This document shows positions 5,709 to 42,239 of a stretch of DNA of 42,565 nucleotides, one piece after another (position 1 is the stretch's first letter; each line of letters opens with the position of its first letter). The notes beneath the pieces are model-generated. The model ran no database searches and was not told the origin of the DNA. It saw only the letters and a program-made list of their open reading frames with translations. A program made the translations under genes and the position numbers. This DNA comes from Deltaproteobacteria bacterium (GTDB lineage: Bacteria > Desulfobacterota > Deferrisomatia > Deferrisomatales > BM512): assembly GCA_002869015.1 (NCBI GenBank), contig PKTT01000006.1, forward strand, positions 137,120 to 179,684. The letters are read 5' to 3'.

Positions 5709-6773
5709 CTACTTCAGCTCCGGCAAGACCTCCAGTGTGCGCCTTATTTCATCATACATAAGCGATGAGCTCATGGTCGCCGTGGTGACGGCATCGGTGT
5801 CGGGGTCAAAGGTCACCGTTTCCTTTGAGAGGAGCCTTTCCTCGAAAGAGCGCGTCTCTTCGGCGCTCCAATTGTCATTGGCAAGCTTTGTCGCATAGAG
5901 GGCATCAAAGCCTCTCACCCTGCCCCCCGAATCAAAGGCGAAGACAAATACGTTGGTGTGGCAGAGGTCACAAACCGGGCGGCGTCTTGCCACCCTGCCA
6001 TAGAGGTCCAGCGGTTTACCCTCTTCATCATATGCGCGAAAGAGCAAAAAAGCCTCAACCCCCTCCACTCGCTCGGCTTTGGTAAGCGCGCCACCACGTA
6101 TTCTGGTGAAGAGCAGCTCAACCTCCTCGCGCTGCTGGGTTTCAAATAGCTCTTCCGGTTCATCCTCCATGAAGGCGGGTATTCCCTGCTCTGCCTTTAT
6201 AGCAACCGCTTTGCCGGCGAGCAGCGCCTCAATACCGGAGTAGATTTCATCAGCTTCGAGGACTCCGATGTGAAAATAAGTCAGCTGCCAGCCGCTCCCC
6301 TCTCGCCTTAGCAATAGGGTCAGCGGCGTTCCCGCAGAATCGCCAATCATATCGAGCGCCGAAAAGGTGGGGTCCGCTCCCAGGGGATAGGTTAGCCCCT
6401 TCTCCTCCTTGAACTGAAGAAGGCCAGCCTCCGTATTACCCTCGGCCAACCCCAAGAGCTTTACCCGGTCCCTTAACTTATCTTGGCCCAACCGCTCCCA
6501 GATGCTCTCCATTATCGGAGCCTGCTCCCAGCAGCTCATGCAGAATCGGTTGAAGAGCTCAAGGACGAGAACCTCCCCCTTTATCTGCTCCAAATCAAAA
6601 CCGCCCGTATCGGTGCGGCCAAGCAGCGCCTCGTAATCCTTGTAATCCGCCAAACCGTAAACGGTTATATTGGGAAGAGACTCCCCCACCGACAACGCCA
6701 AAGCCGCTTCTTCATCTGCCGTGGCAATGGCAGCAAGAAAAAGCAGGAGTAGAGCTACAAGTAACCTTTTCAC
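5709..6773 (-). CDS. Exported thioredoxin-like protein with CxxCH and FMN-binding-like C-terminal domain
   Basis: Starting at GTG 6773 (GGAG seven bases ahead) gives 354 residues; an ATG at 6863 would add 30 residues before the signal peptide and is disfavoured. Residues 1-19 are a signal peptide. Residues 25-195 form a TlpA/peroxiredoxin-like domain with C78-x2-C81 (CMSC). The C-terminal third has CDLCH at 268-272, followed by VFVFAFDSGGRV, and near residue 327 a DAVTTATMSSS segment resembling the DAVSGATxTS motif of FMN-binding domains. CxxCH could bind heme c or act as a redox pair. A periplasmic redox relay is an inference. It converges with the DUF3795 gene. Confidence 0.75.
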   Translation of the reverse strand: MKRLLVALLLLFLAAIATADEEAALALSVGESLPNITVYGLADYKDYEALLGRTDTGGFDLEQIKGEVLVLELFNRFCMSCWEQAPIMESIWERLGQDKLRDRVKLLGLAEGNTEAGLLQFKEEKGLTYPLGADPTFSALDMIGDSAGTPLTLLLRREGSGWQLTYFHIGVLEADEIYSGIEALLAGKAVAIKAEQGIPAFMEDEPEELFETQQREEVELLFTRIRGGALTKAERVEGVEAFLLFRAYDEEGKPLDLYGRVARRRPVCDLCHTNVFVFAFDSGGRVRGFDALYATKLANDNWSAEETRSFEERLLSKETVTFDPDTDAVTTATMSSSLMYDEIRRTLEVLPELK

Positions 6774-6852
6774 GGTATCTCTCCGGGTAAATGTGAAAAA
6801 TTGTATTTTACACATAATGCCTCTTTTTTCACATAACCTTCCGCCCAAGATC

Positions 6853-6882
6853 TTGTAAACCAAATTTTATATTGGTTTACAA
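6853..6882. promoter_or_regulatory. BirA-like operator: perfect 11-bp inverted repeat
   Basis: TTGTAAACCAA at 6853-6863 and TTGGTTTACAA at 6872-6882 are exact inverted copies separated by 8 bases. The outer nine bases of each arm equal the half-sites of the bacterial biotin operator (TTGTAAACC / GGTTTACAA); here 12 bases separate these nine-base arms, fewer than the 14-16 known from characterised sites. The right arm overlaps the predicted -35 of the symporter gene. Confidence 0.75.
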
Positions 6883-6900
6883 TGCCCGTTGATTTATACT
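6872..6900 (+). promoter_or_regulatory. Predicted sigma-70 promoter for the symporter gene
   Basis: TTGGTT at 6872-6877 and TATACT at 6895-6900 have a 17-bp spacer and lie 53 bases before ATG 6953. The -35 falls inside the right arm of the inverted repeat, a layout suited to repression. Confidence 0.5.
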
Positions 6901-6952
6901 CCCCGACTCCACCTGAAATCACATCTACCCCAACGCGGGTTGGAAGGTAACA

Positions 6953-8284
6953 ATGCTCTATTTTCTTATGGCGCTCTTCATAATCATAGGCGTTCTCGAC
7001 TTTCTCCGTAAACACGGCTTTGATCAGTACCTTGTGGCGGGGCGCAGTCAAAACGCGACCATGGTCACACTTTCGATGCTCGCCACCGTAGTCGGAGGCT
7101 CGGCAACGATGGGGATGGTGACCCTCTCAGGGAATGTAGGCTTTCCCGCGATATGGCTCTATCTCTCAGGCACCTCCGGGCTAATGCTTCTGGGTATCAC
7201 TCTGGCGCGCAGGGTCAGGGAGACAGGGGCCGCGACCCTGGCGGACCTCGTCGGTATGCTGATAGGTTCACGGGCGCGGGCGCTTGTCGCGGTAATTATA
7301 GTCACCGGCTGGACGGGTATAGTCGCGGCGCAATTTGTAGCGGCGGGGCGCATAGTCGATACGCTGACCGGCCTTGACGCGACCGGCGCGCTGGTGGCGG
7401 CGTCGGTAGTCATAACGATTTACGCCATATTAGGCGGGCAGTCATCCATAATGAAGACCGACGCGCTTCAGTTCTTCGTGATGGTCGGCGCGCTCCTCTT
7501 CGCAGCAGGGTACATCTGGAAGGTTTCTCCAGCCCCGCTGGCAAACTTCTCCTTCGAGTTTACAAATGAGAAGTTCCCCATATCGAAAGCCCTATATTTT
7601 CTCTTTATCTATGGAGGCAGCTATCTCGTTGGGCCGGACATATACTCAAGGCTATTCACCTCCGCTGATGACGCTACCGCCAAACGCGGCGCGCTTTCGG
7701 CGGCGATCATCCTCCCAATCATCGGTCTCGTTGTCCTCTTTATTGGGCTTTCGGCGGCTAAGGGAGGCGCAGACCCAAAAACTTTACTGACGGTTGAGGT
7801 GGTAAATGCCCTACCCTCATGGGCGGGCGCATGGCTCTTGGGTGGTCTCTTTTGCGCGGTTGTCTCCTCCGCGGACACCTGCCTGGTGACAGCCGCTGGA
7901 ATAATCGAGCACGACATACTAAAGGGCCGCCGCGTTTCATCCATGAGGATATTTATAGCGCTATTTGGAGGAGCATCGCTTGCTATCGGCCTCTGGCGTG
8001 GAGACATAATAGGGCTGCTGCTGATGGGCCTAGGCGTCTTCACGACGGGTGTCGTTGCTCCGGTAGCCACGGCCCTCTACTTTAGAGGAAAGCGAGAGGT
8101 AAACCGACAAGGGCTCTTCATAGCCATTTTGCTTGGCGGCTCCATCGGCCTTACTGCGGGCATAACGGGAATCCAATGGCTAAGTTTCCTCGGTCTTGGG
8201 GTATCGACGGCGATATCTCTCATATCAGCCCTATCAGGTCAAAACGCCAAAGAGCTACAAGTCAAACCTGCCACCACAGACTAA
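6953..8284 (+). CDS. Sodium:solute symporter (SSS) family transporter, candidate vitamin transporter
   Basis: A 443-residue membrane protein with about 12 hydrophobic helices. Features typical of the SSS family include FDQYLVAGRSQ at the end of helix 1, a Gly/Ser/Thr-rich second helix (ATVVGGSATMGMVTLSG) contributing the sodium site, and VVSSADTCLVTAAG in the region of the second sodium ligand (SSADT). GGAAGG precedes ATG 6953. The family includes PanF (pantothenate) and the animal SMVT (biotin, pantothenate, lipoate). Because a biotin-operator-like repeat covers its promoter, biotin or a related vitamin is a reasonable candidate substrate; the protein sequence alone does not show substrate. 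It is monocistronic, ending in a terminator. Confidence 0.88.
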   Translation: MLYFLMALFIIIGVLDFLRKHGFDQYLVAGRSQNATMVTLSMLATVVGGSATMGMVTLSGNVGFPAIWLYLSGTSGLMLLGITLARRVRETGAATLADLVGMLIGSRARALVAVIIVTGWTGIVAAQFVAAGRIVDTLTGLDATGALVAASVVITIYAILGGQSSIMKTDALQFFVMVGALLFAAGYIWKVSPAPLANFSFEFTNEKFPISKALYFLFIYGGSYLVGPDIYSRLFTSADDATAKRGALSAAIILPIIGLVVLFIGLSAAKGGADPKTLLTVEVVNALPSWAGAWLLGGLFCAVVSSADTCLVTAAGIIEHDILKGRRVSSMRIFIALFGGASLAIGLWRGDIIGLLLMGLGVFTTGVVAPVATALYFRGKREVNRQGLFIAILLGGSIGLTAGITGIQWLSFLGLGVSTAISLISALSGQNAKELQVKPATTD

Positions 8285-39346: not shown

Positions 39347-40987
39347 CTATTTCTTTAGTATTGCTTGCGCCTCTTCATCCAAGGCGTCGGTCATGTACTG
39401 TATGCCGGTGACCGCCTCCGTCTCACGGTTGGCGCTCATAAGCTCATCGCGGGATATCTCTGAGAGGTTGAACTTCCGGGCGCCCGCCAGAAACTGCTGG
39501 AGCCCACAGGCGAGCTTGTCGGCGTAGCCGTACATCGCCACCGCGCCAAAAGGTATCTTCTCCATCTCGTCTGCGCCCACCTTGTTTTTCACCTCTTCCC
39601 AGCCGGCGAAGATTTCCTCGGGGTAGTTTCCCACTTCCTTGACGGAAGATGGCAGCGTGTCCCAGTTGCCATTAACCTTGGAGCGGTTATCTGGCTTAAA
39701 TACACCCTCGATATTTGAGCCAAGGTAGCCGGGGATCATCGGCGCACGGCCCATGCATACCAGTTTGGTGAAGGGTGCACCTAGGGCCATTGCTTTGAAG
39801 ATGTGATCCTCGCGGGCAAAACCGCCAGCGAATGCGATATCCGGCACATCAATGCCGCGACTATCGAGCACCTTGCAGTATTCGTATGCTTTTGAGTGAA
39901 GCTCAAGGGATGGCACACCCCAATGCTCCATCATGTTCCAGGGGGACATGCCAGTACCACCGCCTGCACCGTCGATAGTCAAGAGGTCAAGCTTGCAATC
40001 AGCCGCATAGCGGATCGCCATCGCAAGCGCCTCATTGCCGTAGGCGCCCGTTTTAAGAGAAATACGTTTATAGCCAAGTTTCCTCAGATACTCGACCGAT
40101 TCCTTGAAGTCCTCCTCGACCCCGTCAGTATCGTCGATGTTCGTGCCACCTAAGCGTGAGTGACGGGCGAAGGAGTTAATGGCGTGGTGCTTAAAGGCTT
40201 CCTCCACTACGGGATCGTAGGGGTCAGGGTCTACGACATAACCGCGATCCTTTAGGAACTTGGCATACTCGATGTCAGTGACCTGAATCTCTCCGCCTAT
40301 ATCTTTAGCACCCTGCCCCCATTTGAGTTCGATAATCACTTTGTCGCCGTATTTAGCGATGAGATACTCGGCGACGCCATTTCTAGTGTCCTCAACGTTC
40401 ATCTGGACGATTATCGCCCCGTAGCCATCATGGTAGCGGAGGAAGGTGTCAACACGACGCTCCAGTTCGGGTGCTTTAATAATCTTGCCGCCTTCCATCA
40501 CCGACTCTTTGTCCACCCCTACCACATTCTCGCCGACTACAATGGGGATGCCGCAAAGAGCGGAGCCCACTGCGAAAGAGTCCCAATACTTTGCTGCGAT
40601 GAATGTGGAGCCGAGGGCGCCTGTCATCATAGGAACGCGGCACTTTGTTTTAATTTGGCCCCCGAAGGAGGTAGTAATGTCAACGTTGGGAAAGACGCAA
40701 TCATCAGGGTCGTTGGAGAGCCCGGGAGCAAGGCCATTGGCCCCGTAAGCGTACCCTTGGATTCGGAGCGCGTGGTATCCAACGCCTAGCGAGGTTATGT
40801 TGGAGGAGCCGGAGGTGATGGAACCGAAGTCACGTGGGTAGAGGAGCTTACGGCCCACCAGCGAGGAGAGCCACGTCTCGCACTTTCCTTTGCAATCGCT
40901 CTTGCATAGGGTGCAAAGGCCCGACTCGCAAGGGTCGCCGCGATTTACCGTTCCCAAGGCATCATTCTTCTTGTTGTACTGGGTCAT
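39347..40987 (-). CDS. FMN-binding glutamate synthase family protein with N-terminal cysteine cluster
   Basis: From ATG 40987 (AAGGAT-AGGAAT ahead) the protein has 546 residues; an upstream ATG at 41041 lies in the operator region. Residues 20-36 have C20, C25, C28, C32 and C36, a compact possible metal or iron-sulfur site. The rest is the FMN-binding barrel of glutamate synthase large subunit (GltB2-like): KWGQGAKDIGGEIQ, ISLKTGAYGNEALAMAIRYAADCKLDLLTIDGAGGGTGMSPW, IAFAGGFAREDHIFKAMALGA. No glutaminase domain is present. The role may be glutamate synthesis with a partner or a distinct oxidoreduction. It is divergent from NrpR. Confidence 0.88.
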   Translation of the reverse strand: MTQYNKKNDALGTVNRGDPCESGLCTLCKSDCKGKCETWLSSLVGRKLLYPRDFGSITSGSSNITSLGVGYHALRIQGYAYGANGLAPGLSNDPDDCVFPNVDITTSFGGQIKTKCRVPMMTGALGSTFIAAKYWDSFAVGSALCGIPIVVGENVVGVDKESVMEGGKIIKAPELERRVDTFLRYHDGYGAIIVQMNVEDTRNGVAEYLIAKYGDKVIIELKWGQGAKDIGGEIQVTDIEYAKFLKDRGYVVDPDPYDPVVEEAFKHHAINSFARHSRLGGTNIDDTDGVEEDFKESVEYLRKLGYKRISLKTGAYGNEALAMAIRYAADCKLDLLTIDGAGGGTGMSPWNMMEHWGVPSLELHSKAYEYCKVLDSRGIDVPDIAFAGGFAREDHIFKAMALGAPFTKLVCMGRAPMIPGYLGSNIEGVFKPDNRSKVNGNWDTLPSSVKEVGNYPEEIFAGWEEVKNKVGADEMEKIPFGAVAMYGYADKLACGLQQFLAGARKFNLSEISRDELMSANRETEAVTGIQYMTDALDEEAQAILKK

Positions 40988-41002
40988 ATTCCTATCCTTT
41001 TT

Positions 41003-41008
41003 CGGCAA
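41003..41008. promoter_or_regulatory. CGGCAA half-site
   Basis: CGGCAA matches one arm of the palindromes at 41119 and 41161. It lies 16 bases outside the glutamate-synthase-like start. Confidence 0.4.
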
Positions 41009-41024
41009 ATTAAAAGTATCTATT

Positions 41025-41030
41025 CGGCAA
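41025..41030. promoter_or_regulatory. CGGCAA half-site
   Basis: Same half-site as at 41003, 22 bases away, in the same orientation. Both are in the leader of the minus-strand gene. Confidence 0.4.
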
Positions 41031-41118
41031 GCATATGCCATATAATCTTAGAATTCTTTTTTTATTTGAGAGCGCTCGTCAAGGCATTTTCTAGGGCTTT
41101 ATAAGATAAATTACATCT

Positions 41119-41132
41119 CGGCAAAATTGCCG
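41119..41132. promoter_or_regulatory. Putative NrpR operator 1
   Basis: CGGCAA-AA-TTGCCG: six-base arms perfectly inverted around two bases. An identical copy follows at 41161. Confidence 0.75.
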
Positions 41133-41160
41133 TTTGCATAATCGCCAAGGTGTTAAATTG

Positions 41161-41174
41161 CGGCAAAATTGCCG
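41161..41174. promoter_or_regulatory. Putative NrpR operator 2
   Basis: Identical 14-bp palindrome starting 42 bp (four helical turns) after operator 1 and ending 39 bases before the NrpR start. Repressors bound at both could contact each other on one DNA face. Confidence 0.75.
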
Positions 41175-41213
41175 GAATAGATAATTGGCTGTACCGGCTA
41201 AAAAGGAGGGGGC

Positions 41214-42239
41214 ATGACCACCAAACGAGACCGCAAGCGCCGCCTGATACTCGAAGCGCTAACGACCTTAACTCCCCCCGCTTCAACCGCTGCCATCTGC
41301 GCAGAGCTTAACTCACGCGGCGTGGACGTATCCGAGAGGACTATCCGCGACTACGTCTCCAAACTCAGGGAGGACGGTTTGACGGAGGCTATTGGCAGGA
41401 AAGGGCACAAGCTCACCAAGGATGGACACAAGGAACTCGACGCCTCCACTGCCCTCGACCGGGTGGGATTTCTCTCAGCCAAGATAGACAAGATGACCTA
41501 CCAGATGTCCTTCGACATAACGAACAGGCGCGGTACGGTGGTCGTAAATACCTCATTACTCTACCCCGAGCAATTGGCGAGCTGCGCGGATGAGATATGC
41601 AAGGTCTTCGAGAAGGGCTACGCGATGGGGCATTTGATGACGCTCCTCGAACCTGGCGAGAGTATAGGCCCCTACACAATCCCAGAAGGTATGGTGGGTT
41701 TTTGCACCGTCTGCTCCATAACACTCAATGGCGTGCTGCTCAAATACGGCATCCCCACCCGCTCCCGCTTCGGTGGCCTTCTGGAACTAAAAGGGGGCAA
41801 GGCGACGCGTTTTCTGGAGATCATCACCTACGACGGTACCTCCATCGACCCGCTGGAGGTCTTCATACGTTCGGGCATGACCAACTATCTCGGAGCGATA
41901 CGAGACGGCAACGGCTGTATCGGCGCGTCCTTCAGGGAGATACCAGCGGATAGCCGTGAGACCGTGGTGCTACTGGCAGAAAAGCTGGACAGGATAGGGC
42001 TAGGCGCGTTCATGGAGATAGGCAGGCCGCGCCTCCCAATCTATGGCATACCAGTTGGCGAGGGTCACGCCGGGGCGGTGGTGGTCGGCGGGCTCAACCC
42101 AATCTCAATCGTAGAAGAGATCGGCAACCGAGTAGTATCCCGCGCCATGAGCGGCCTGCTCGAATACAACCGCTTATTTCACTACAGCGAATTCAAAGAC
42201 AGGTTAAGGGGATTATTGGTACCTACAGCGATTGAGTGA
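41214..42239 (+). CDS. NrpR-type transcriptional regulator
   Basis: The 341-residue protein has a winged-helix N-terminus (KRRLILEALTTL ... VSERTIRDYVSKLREDGLTEAIGRKGHKLT, about 1-65) and one NrpR domain (DUF128), recognised by LMTLLEPGESIGPYTIPEGMVGFCTVCSITLNGVLLKYGIPTRSRFGGLLE and later GLGAFMEIGRPRLPIYGIPVGEGHAGAVVVGGLNP. In methanogens NrpR represses nitrogen-assimilation genes until 2-oxoglutarate rises. AAGGAGGG precedes ATG 41214. It is divergent from a glutamate synthase family gene, and two palindromes lie between, so nitrogen-status control of that gene is likely. Some homologues have two NrpR domains; this has one. Confidence 0.92.
   Translation: MTTKRDRKRRLILEALTTLTPPASTAAICAELNSRGVDVSERTIRDYVSKLREDGLTEAIGRKGHKLTKDGHKELDASTALDRVGFLSAKIDKMTYQMSFDITNRRGTVVVNTSLLYPEQLASCADEICKVFEKGYAMGHLMTLLEPGESIGPYTIPEGMVGFCTVCSITLNGVLLKYGIPTRSRFGGLLELKGGKATRFLEIITYDGTSIDPLEVFIRSGMTNYLGAIRDGNGCIGASFREIPADSRETVVLLAEKLDRIGLGAFMEIGRPRLPIYGIPVGEGHAGAVVVGGLNPISIVEEIGNRVVSRAMSGLLEYNRLFHYSEFKDRLRGLLVPTAIE

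Follow-up and report, generated by a model that had tools for sequence, protein, structure and literature searches.

The window analysed here is the whole stretch of 42,565 nucleotides, from a deltaproteobacterial genome (contig PKTT01000006.1). It contains a gene for a protein of the sodium:solute symporter (SSS) family, which is preceded by an inverted repeat resembling the operators of the biotin regulator BirA. The features of this locus are as follows.

6853..6882, no strand assigned: predicted BirA operator, TTGTAAACC-AAATTTTATATT-GGTTTACAA, based on its sequence, its uniqueness in the genome, its conservation in the sister species and the presence of an HTH-bearing BirA in the genome
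6872..6877, forward strand: weak -35 element TTGGTT, read from the sequence, sharing bases with the right operator arm (6874-6882) and identical in the sister species
6895..6900, forward strand: -10 element TATACT, 17 bp after TTGGTT, the element and the spacing being conserved in the sister species
6953..8284, forward strand: SSS-family symporter of 443 amino acids, predicted to be a Na+-coupled biotin importer on the basis of its Pfam SSF match, its LeuT-fold model and the linkage of its clade to bio operons

The nine-base sequences TTGTAAACC (6853-6861) and GGTTTACAA (6874-6882) are perfect inverted arms with 12 bp between them, and when extended inwards the arms are 11 bp each (TTGTAAACCAA and TTGGTTTACAA). 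As paired BirA half-sites they match at 18 of 18 bases. The spacer, AAATTTTATATT, contains no G or C, and the repeat ends 70 bp before the ATG of the symporter gene (6953). This site is the sole match in the window when up to three mismatches are allowed (0.01 expected from shuffles), and it is the single exact match in the 2.53 Mb genome when spacers of 8-20 are scanned; the reversed pattern, used as a control in an exact scan of the same genome and spacers, gave no matches. None of 2000 dinucleotide shuffles of the 300 bp upstream of the symporter gene contained an equally good site. A preliminary description of this DNA, made from sequence alone, had claimed that nine-base half-sites form perfect inverted arms of 11 bp before an SSS gene, which held, with exact coordinates confirmed. 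It had also claimed that the repeat overlaps a promoter with 17-bp spacing. TTGGTT-N17-TATACT can be read directly, with TATACT ending 52 bp before the ATG; this promoter has a poor -35 box and is absent from a consensus promoter scan, though the sister species has it too.

A second inverted repeat, TGTGAAAA-ATTGTA-TTTTACACA, is found at 6792-6814 of the window, nearer to a divergent thioredoxin-like gene (5709-6773), and its palindrome is lost in the sister species. Co-regulation of the thioredoxin-like gene with the symporter gene is unsupported, and this neighbour is missing in other clade members. At 39347-42239 of the window a glutamate-synthase-like gene (Glu_synthase) and a gene encoding NrpR regulatory domains (PF01995, 258 bits) point away from each other. 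NrpR is a nitrogen regulator known mainly from archaea.

The symporter protein

The sole Pfam match of the protein is SSF (PF00474), at 57.8 bits against a cut-off of 22.8; it has no match to BioY (PF02632). Its AlphaFold model has a LeuT-type fold (pLDDT 89), the best PDB match of which is CHT1 (TM 0.78), with a sialic acid symporter and NIS also among the closest structures. In a 12-row alignment Ser305-Ser306 is invariant and the motif WTGIVAAQ (120-127) is invariant or nearly so. Paired serines in the eighth core helix form the Na2 site in vSGLT and PutP, and S305-S306 correspond to these residues of known SSS members, a role in Na2 binding being inferred by analogy. Na+ coupling itself is inferred from family membership.

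One rival explanation is that the protein is a pantothenate carrier resembling PanF, or a multivitamin carrier, and that the BirA-like repeat is fortuitous. In its favour are the SSS family itself, the presence of panF among the weak NCBIfam matches and the animal transporter SMVT, which carries both vitamins. Against it, the score to panF (TIGR02119) is 38 bits where the cut-off is 328, panC is present in the window genome and in the sister species, so that pantothenate import is not needed, and the genomic links of the clade point to biotin genes. Identity with PanF is rejected on the score and on the presence of panC, and the rival as a whole is very unlikely. PutP scores 41 bits against a curated cut-off of 515. 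The hint at PanF and SMVT in the preliminary description therefore survives as an analogy only, the protein being no PanF and a distant relative of SMVT.

Links between the symporter clade and biotin genes

In a phylogenetic tree the window gene and the SSS genes of genomes G382, G182 and G275, Desulfovibrio (L008) and Salidesulfovibrio (L005) fall in one 11-row subclade (100/100), which nests within a 35-row clade (99/95). In G382 and G182 the gene order is bioB, a bioD-bioA fusion and the SSS gene, and the gene ends overlap; in G275 the order is bioDA-SSS. The SSS genes of L008 and L005 converge on bioD, with bioA behind it in L008. Because of this linkage to bio operons, the tie of the clade to biotin stands independently of the operator.

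In one further family (f16; L154, L160, L161, L163 and L168) the SSS gene is regularly preceded by two genes that, judged by eye, resemble larB-larC, genes for the nickel-pincer cofactor.

The window genome lacks a recognisable bioB (best score 35 bits against a cut-off of 225), and none is found in the sister species (G001) either. BioY is not found in the window genome nor anywhere in its family. In the remaining three genomes of the family, relatives from outside the genus, bioB is present and the counterpart of the window SSS gene is missing. The window genome and that of the sister species are MAGs, with completeness values of 95% and 92%, and absences of genes are not absolute, though the two species agree.

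In a sample of 395 genomes from the phylum, bioB presence was called at E 1e-40. Genomes lacking bioB number 125, and among these BioY is present in 69, the SSS clade in 18 and both in none, against 9.9 expected (p 9e-8); the two do not occur together in any of the 395 genomes. The clade is enriched in genomes without bioB (18 of 23, p 3e-6). These p-values ignore phylogeny and gaps in the MAGs, and the counts are not phylogenetically independent. BioY is missing from 56 of the 125 genomes, 18 of which are accounted for by the symporter clade. These data show the absence of bioB and BioY from the window genome, the operon linkage and the distribution of the clade; the substrate of the protein is inferred.

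A remainder of 38 of the 125 genomes has neither BioY nor the SSS clade. These may possess another biotin importer, or the assemblies may be incomplete.

It could be argued that BirA controls the gene but that the cargo is a biotin precursor or vitamer (dethiobiotin, KAPA, DAPA or pimelate) rather than biotin. The SSS gene does sit with bioB, bioA or bioD in G382, G182, G275, L005 and L008, where import of a precursor makes sense. Against this, the 18 of 23 clade genomes without bioB include the window genome, and a precursor could not be converted to biotin in them. We consider this explanation unlikely, leaving room for a precursor as substrate in the genomes with bioB, which hold five clade members.

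A biotin-linked exporter acting against over-accumulation is a further alternative to an importer, since the direction of transport cannot be read from sequence. SSS members, however, couple uptake to inward Na+, and the gene persists in genomes unable to make biotin, with repression predicted under ample biotin. This alternative is all but excluded.

The predicted operator in relatives and the BirA regulator

The repeat is retained upstream of the orthologous gene of the sister species (L003/G001; same genus, 90% identical) as CTGTAAACC-N12-GGTTTACAA, with one change, at the first base. The AA beside the left arm has become TT in this species, yet the arms and TATACT are preserved. Upstream of the clade SSS gene of G033 the sequence is ATGTTAACC-N12-GGTTAACAA. 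Sites are also present before the clade genes of a Spirochaete (L004; N13), of G291 (N14) and of G187, G106 and G134 (N13), and together with that of G033 these beat shuffled sequences, of which 0 to 15 in 2000 were as good. An operator before the orthologous SSS gene is seen in the sister species, the Spirochaete, G033, G291 and the f16 family. The sites of G162, G071 and G023 are weak, being equalled by 27-153 of 2000 shuffles, and it is possible that the TTGACA inside their right arms is a -35 box. The upstream regions of other clade members gave best scores of 5-7 mismatches, which is the chance level (shuffle median 6). An exact scan of 27 genomes with a relaxed pattern (N11-16) found no further site, after which relatives were scanned with mismatches allowed; in this mismatch scan no convincing operator-like sequence was found for the Fibrobacter and Bacteroidota homologues. 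A GTnAAC core is invariant in all 28 half-sites compared.

The window genome has one biotin protein ligase match, which contains HTH_11 (PF08279, residues 10-58, 55 bits against a cut-off of 25), BPL and BPL_C domains (PF03099, PF02237). TIGR00122 scores 54.9 bits on this protein, under the cut-off of 70. An HTH-bearing BirA is present in 8 of 8 genomes with a site, counting only site-bearing SSS-clade genomes in which birA was detected, and in 2 of 14 genomes without one (Fisher p 1.4e-4, the related genomes not being independent). The ligases of the other 12 siteless genomes have no N-terminal DNA-binding domain. In G176 (L158), one of the two exceptions, birA immediately precedes the SSS gene, the two apparently forming a single operon. 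The site, its conservation and the HTH-bearing BirA are shown; binding and repression are inferred.

G122 (L105/L157) is also an exception to the pattern: its BirA bears an HTH and it has bioB, yet its clade SSS gene is not preceded by an operator.

The 12-bp spacer lies outside the published range of 14-16 bp, the consensus spacer of delta-proteobacterial BirA operators being N14/15 (PMC545781). The preliminary description raised this as a worry. The bioB operators of the phylum, however, have N12 in G015, N13 in G002 and G003, which belong to the same family as the window genome, and N14 in G007, G010 and G011, and the bioY operators have N14. With N12-N14 found at clear-cut biotin genes of this phylum, the short spacing is no reason to invoke another regulator, and the published range is too narrow to define the operator family here. 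It is conceivable that the flexibility of an A/T-only N12 spacer compensates for the short spacing.

Among BirA-like operators with 12-bp spacing (L072, L093, L053 and L054) 4 of 4 spacers lack G and C, unlike most N13-N14 spacers.

The remaining rival is that a different regulator binds the palindrome and that its likeness to a BirA operator is a coincidence, for which the spacer length is the argument. Three observations speak against it: presence of the site tracks the HTH domain of BirA across the clade, the N12 spacing is shared with bioB of G015 and bioB of the same family has N13, and the gene family has links to biotin that do not rest on the site. This makes another regulator very unlikely. 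As to the checks that would bear on the preliminary description, a BirA with an N-terminal DNA-binding domain was found and the repeat has been preserved before orthologous transporter genes, both of which favour it. The repeat was not found at other biotin genes of this genome in the exact scan, because bioB and bioY are absent there.

Proposed function and comparison with known systems

We conclude that the gene very probably encodes a Na+-coupled biotin importer under BirA control, as the preliminary description had inferred; binding, repression, substrate and direction of transport are all predicted. The strongest evidence, the operon linkage of the clade to bioB, bioDA and birA and its complementary distribution with BioY, lay beyond the reach of that description. 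In the proposed mechanism, when biotin is plentiful bifunctional BirA, loaded with biotinyl-5'-AMP, would dimerise on the 30-bp inverted repeat, covering the -35 side of the promoter and blocking polymerase. When biotin is short BirA would be consumed as a ligase, the site would be freed and the transporter would be made. Since biotin synthase has been lost and BioY is absent, the symporter is likely to be the main biotin source of the organism, transport being predicted. The chief doubt that is left concerns the range of substrates, and biocytin and similar close vitamers may also be carried. Against the importer reading it can be said that it rests without binding or uptake data and that the operator spacer falls short of the consensus length in the literature.

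A bolder reading, which we regard as likely when its parts are taken jointly, is that a distinct group of bacterial Na+ symporters, with members in several phyla, makes up a third class of biotin transporter in bacteria, in addition to BioY and YigM. In the auxotrophs of this phylum the clade would take the place of BioY, it would have reached the substrate of SMVT independently, and BirA would act on an operator with 12-bp spacing, the pure A/T spacer probably being a compensating DNA-bending feature. No paper on an SSS-type bacterial biotin transporter was found in the literature searched, which is not proof of novelty. Two regulon surveys (PMC545781, PMC5343134) and a survey of vitamin transport (PMC6593275) name BioY and YigM and no SSS transporter. 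Roughly 22% of biotin auxotrophs in the gut have no BioY (PMC6593275). If the importer reading is true, the annotation of clade genes as 'sodium:solute symporter' or 'PanF/PutP-like' should change, predictions of auxotrophy would improve, a bacterial model for the Na+-driven biotin transport of SMVT would be gained, and BirA operators would prove to include shorter forms than had been supposed.

The locus shares half-sites, the GTnAAC core and an HTH-bearing BirA with the BirA regulons of E. coli and delta-proteobacteria (PMC545781, PMC5343134). It differs in its spacer (12 against 14-16), in its SSS target, a symporter not listed as a member in these papers, and in that no biosynthetic target was found in the genome by exact scan. 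BioY, an ECF-type transporter, is likewise predicted to bring biotin into auxotrophs under the control of BirA, and the BioY genes of the phylum also have BirA sites; its protein family is unrelated to the SSS clade and the two exclude each other in the sample. The E. coli biotin permease YigM/BioP is likewise a secondary transporter for biotin, as predicted for the SSS protein. YigM/BioP belongs to the EamA/DMT superfamily, unlike the SSS protein. PanF and PutP have the bacterial SSS family in common with the window protein, which scores far under both curated cut-offs. Animal SMVT (SLC5A6) is in the same superfamily as the clade and has the same predicted substrate and coupling ion. The clade profile matches SMVT (PDB 26va) at E 8e-13 (51 bits), whereas CHT1 is better at E 9e-27 and other SLC5 members also score higher. 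Since CHT1 matches better than SMVT, biotin use by SMVT and by the clade probably arose separately. By analogy, and with transport predicted, the window symporter would be a functional analogue of animal SMVT and not of PanF.
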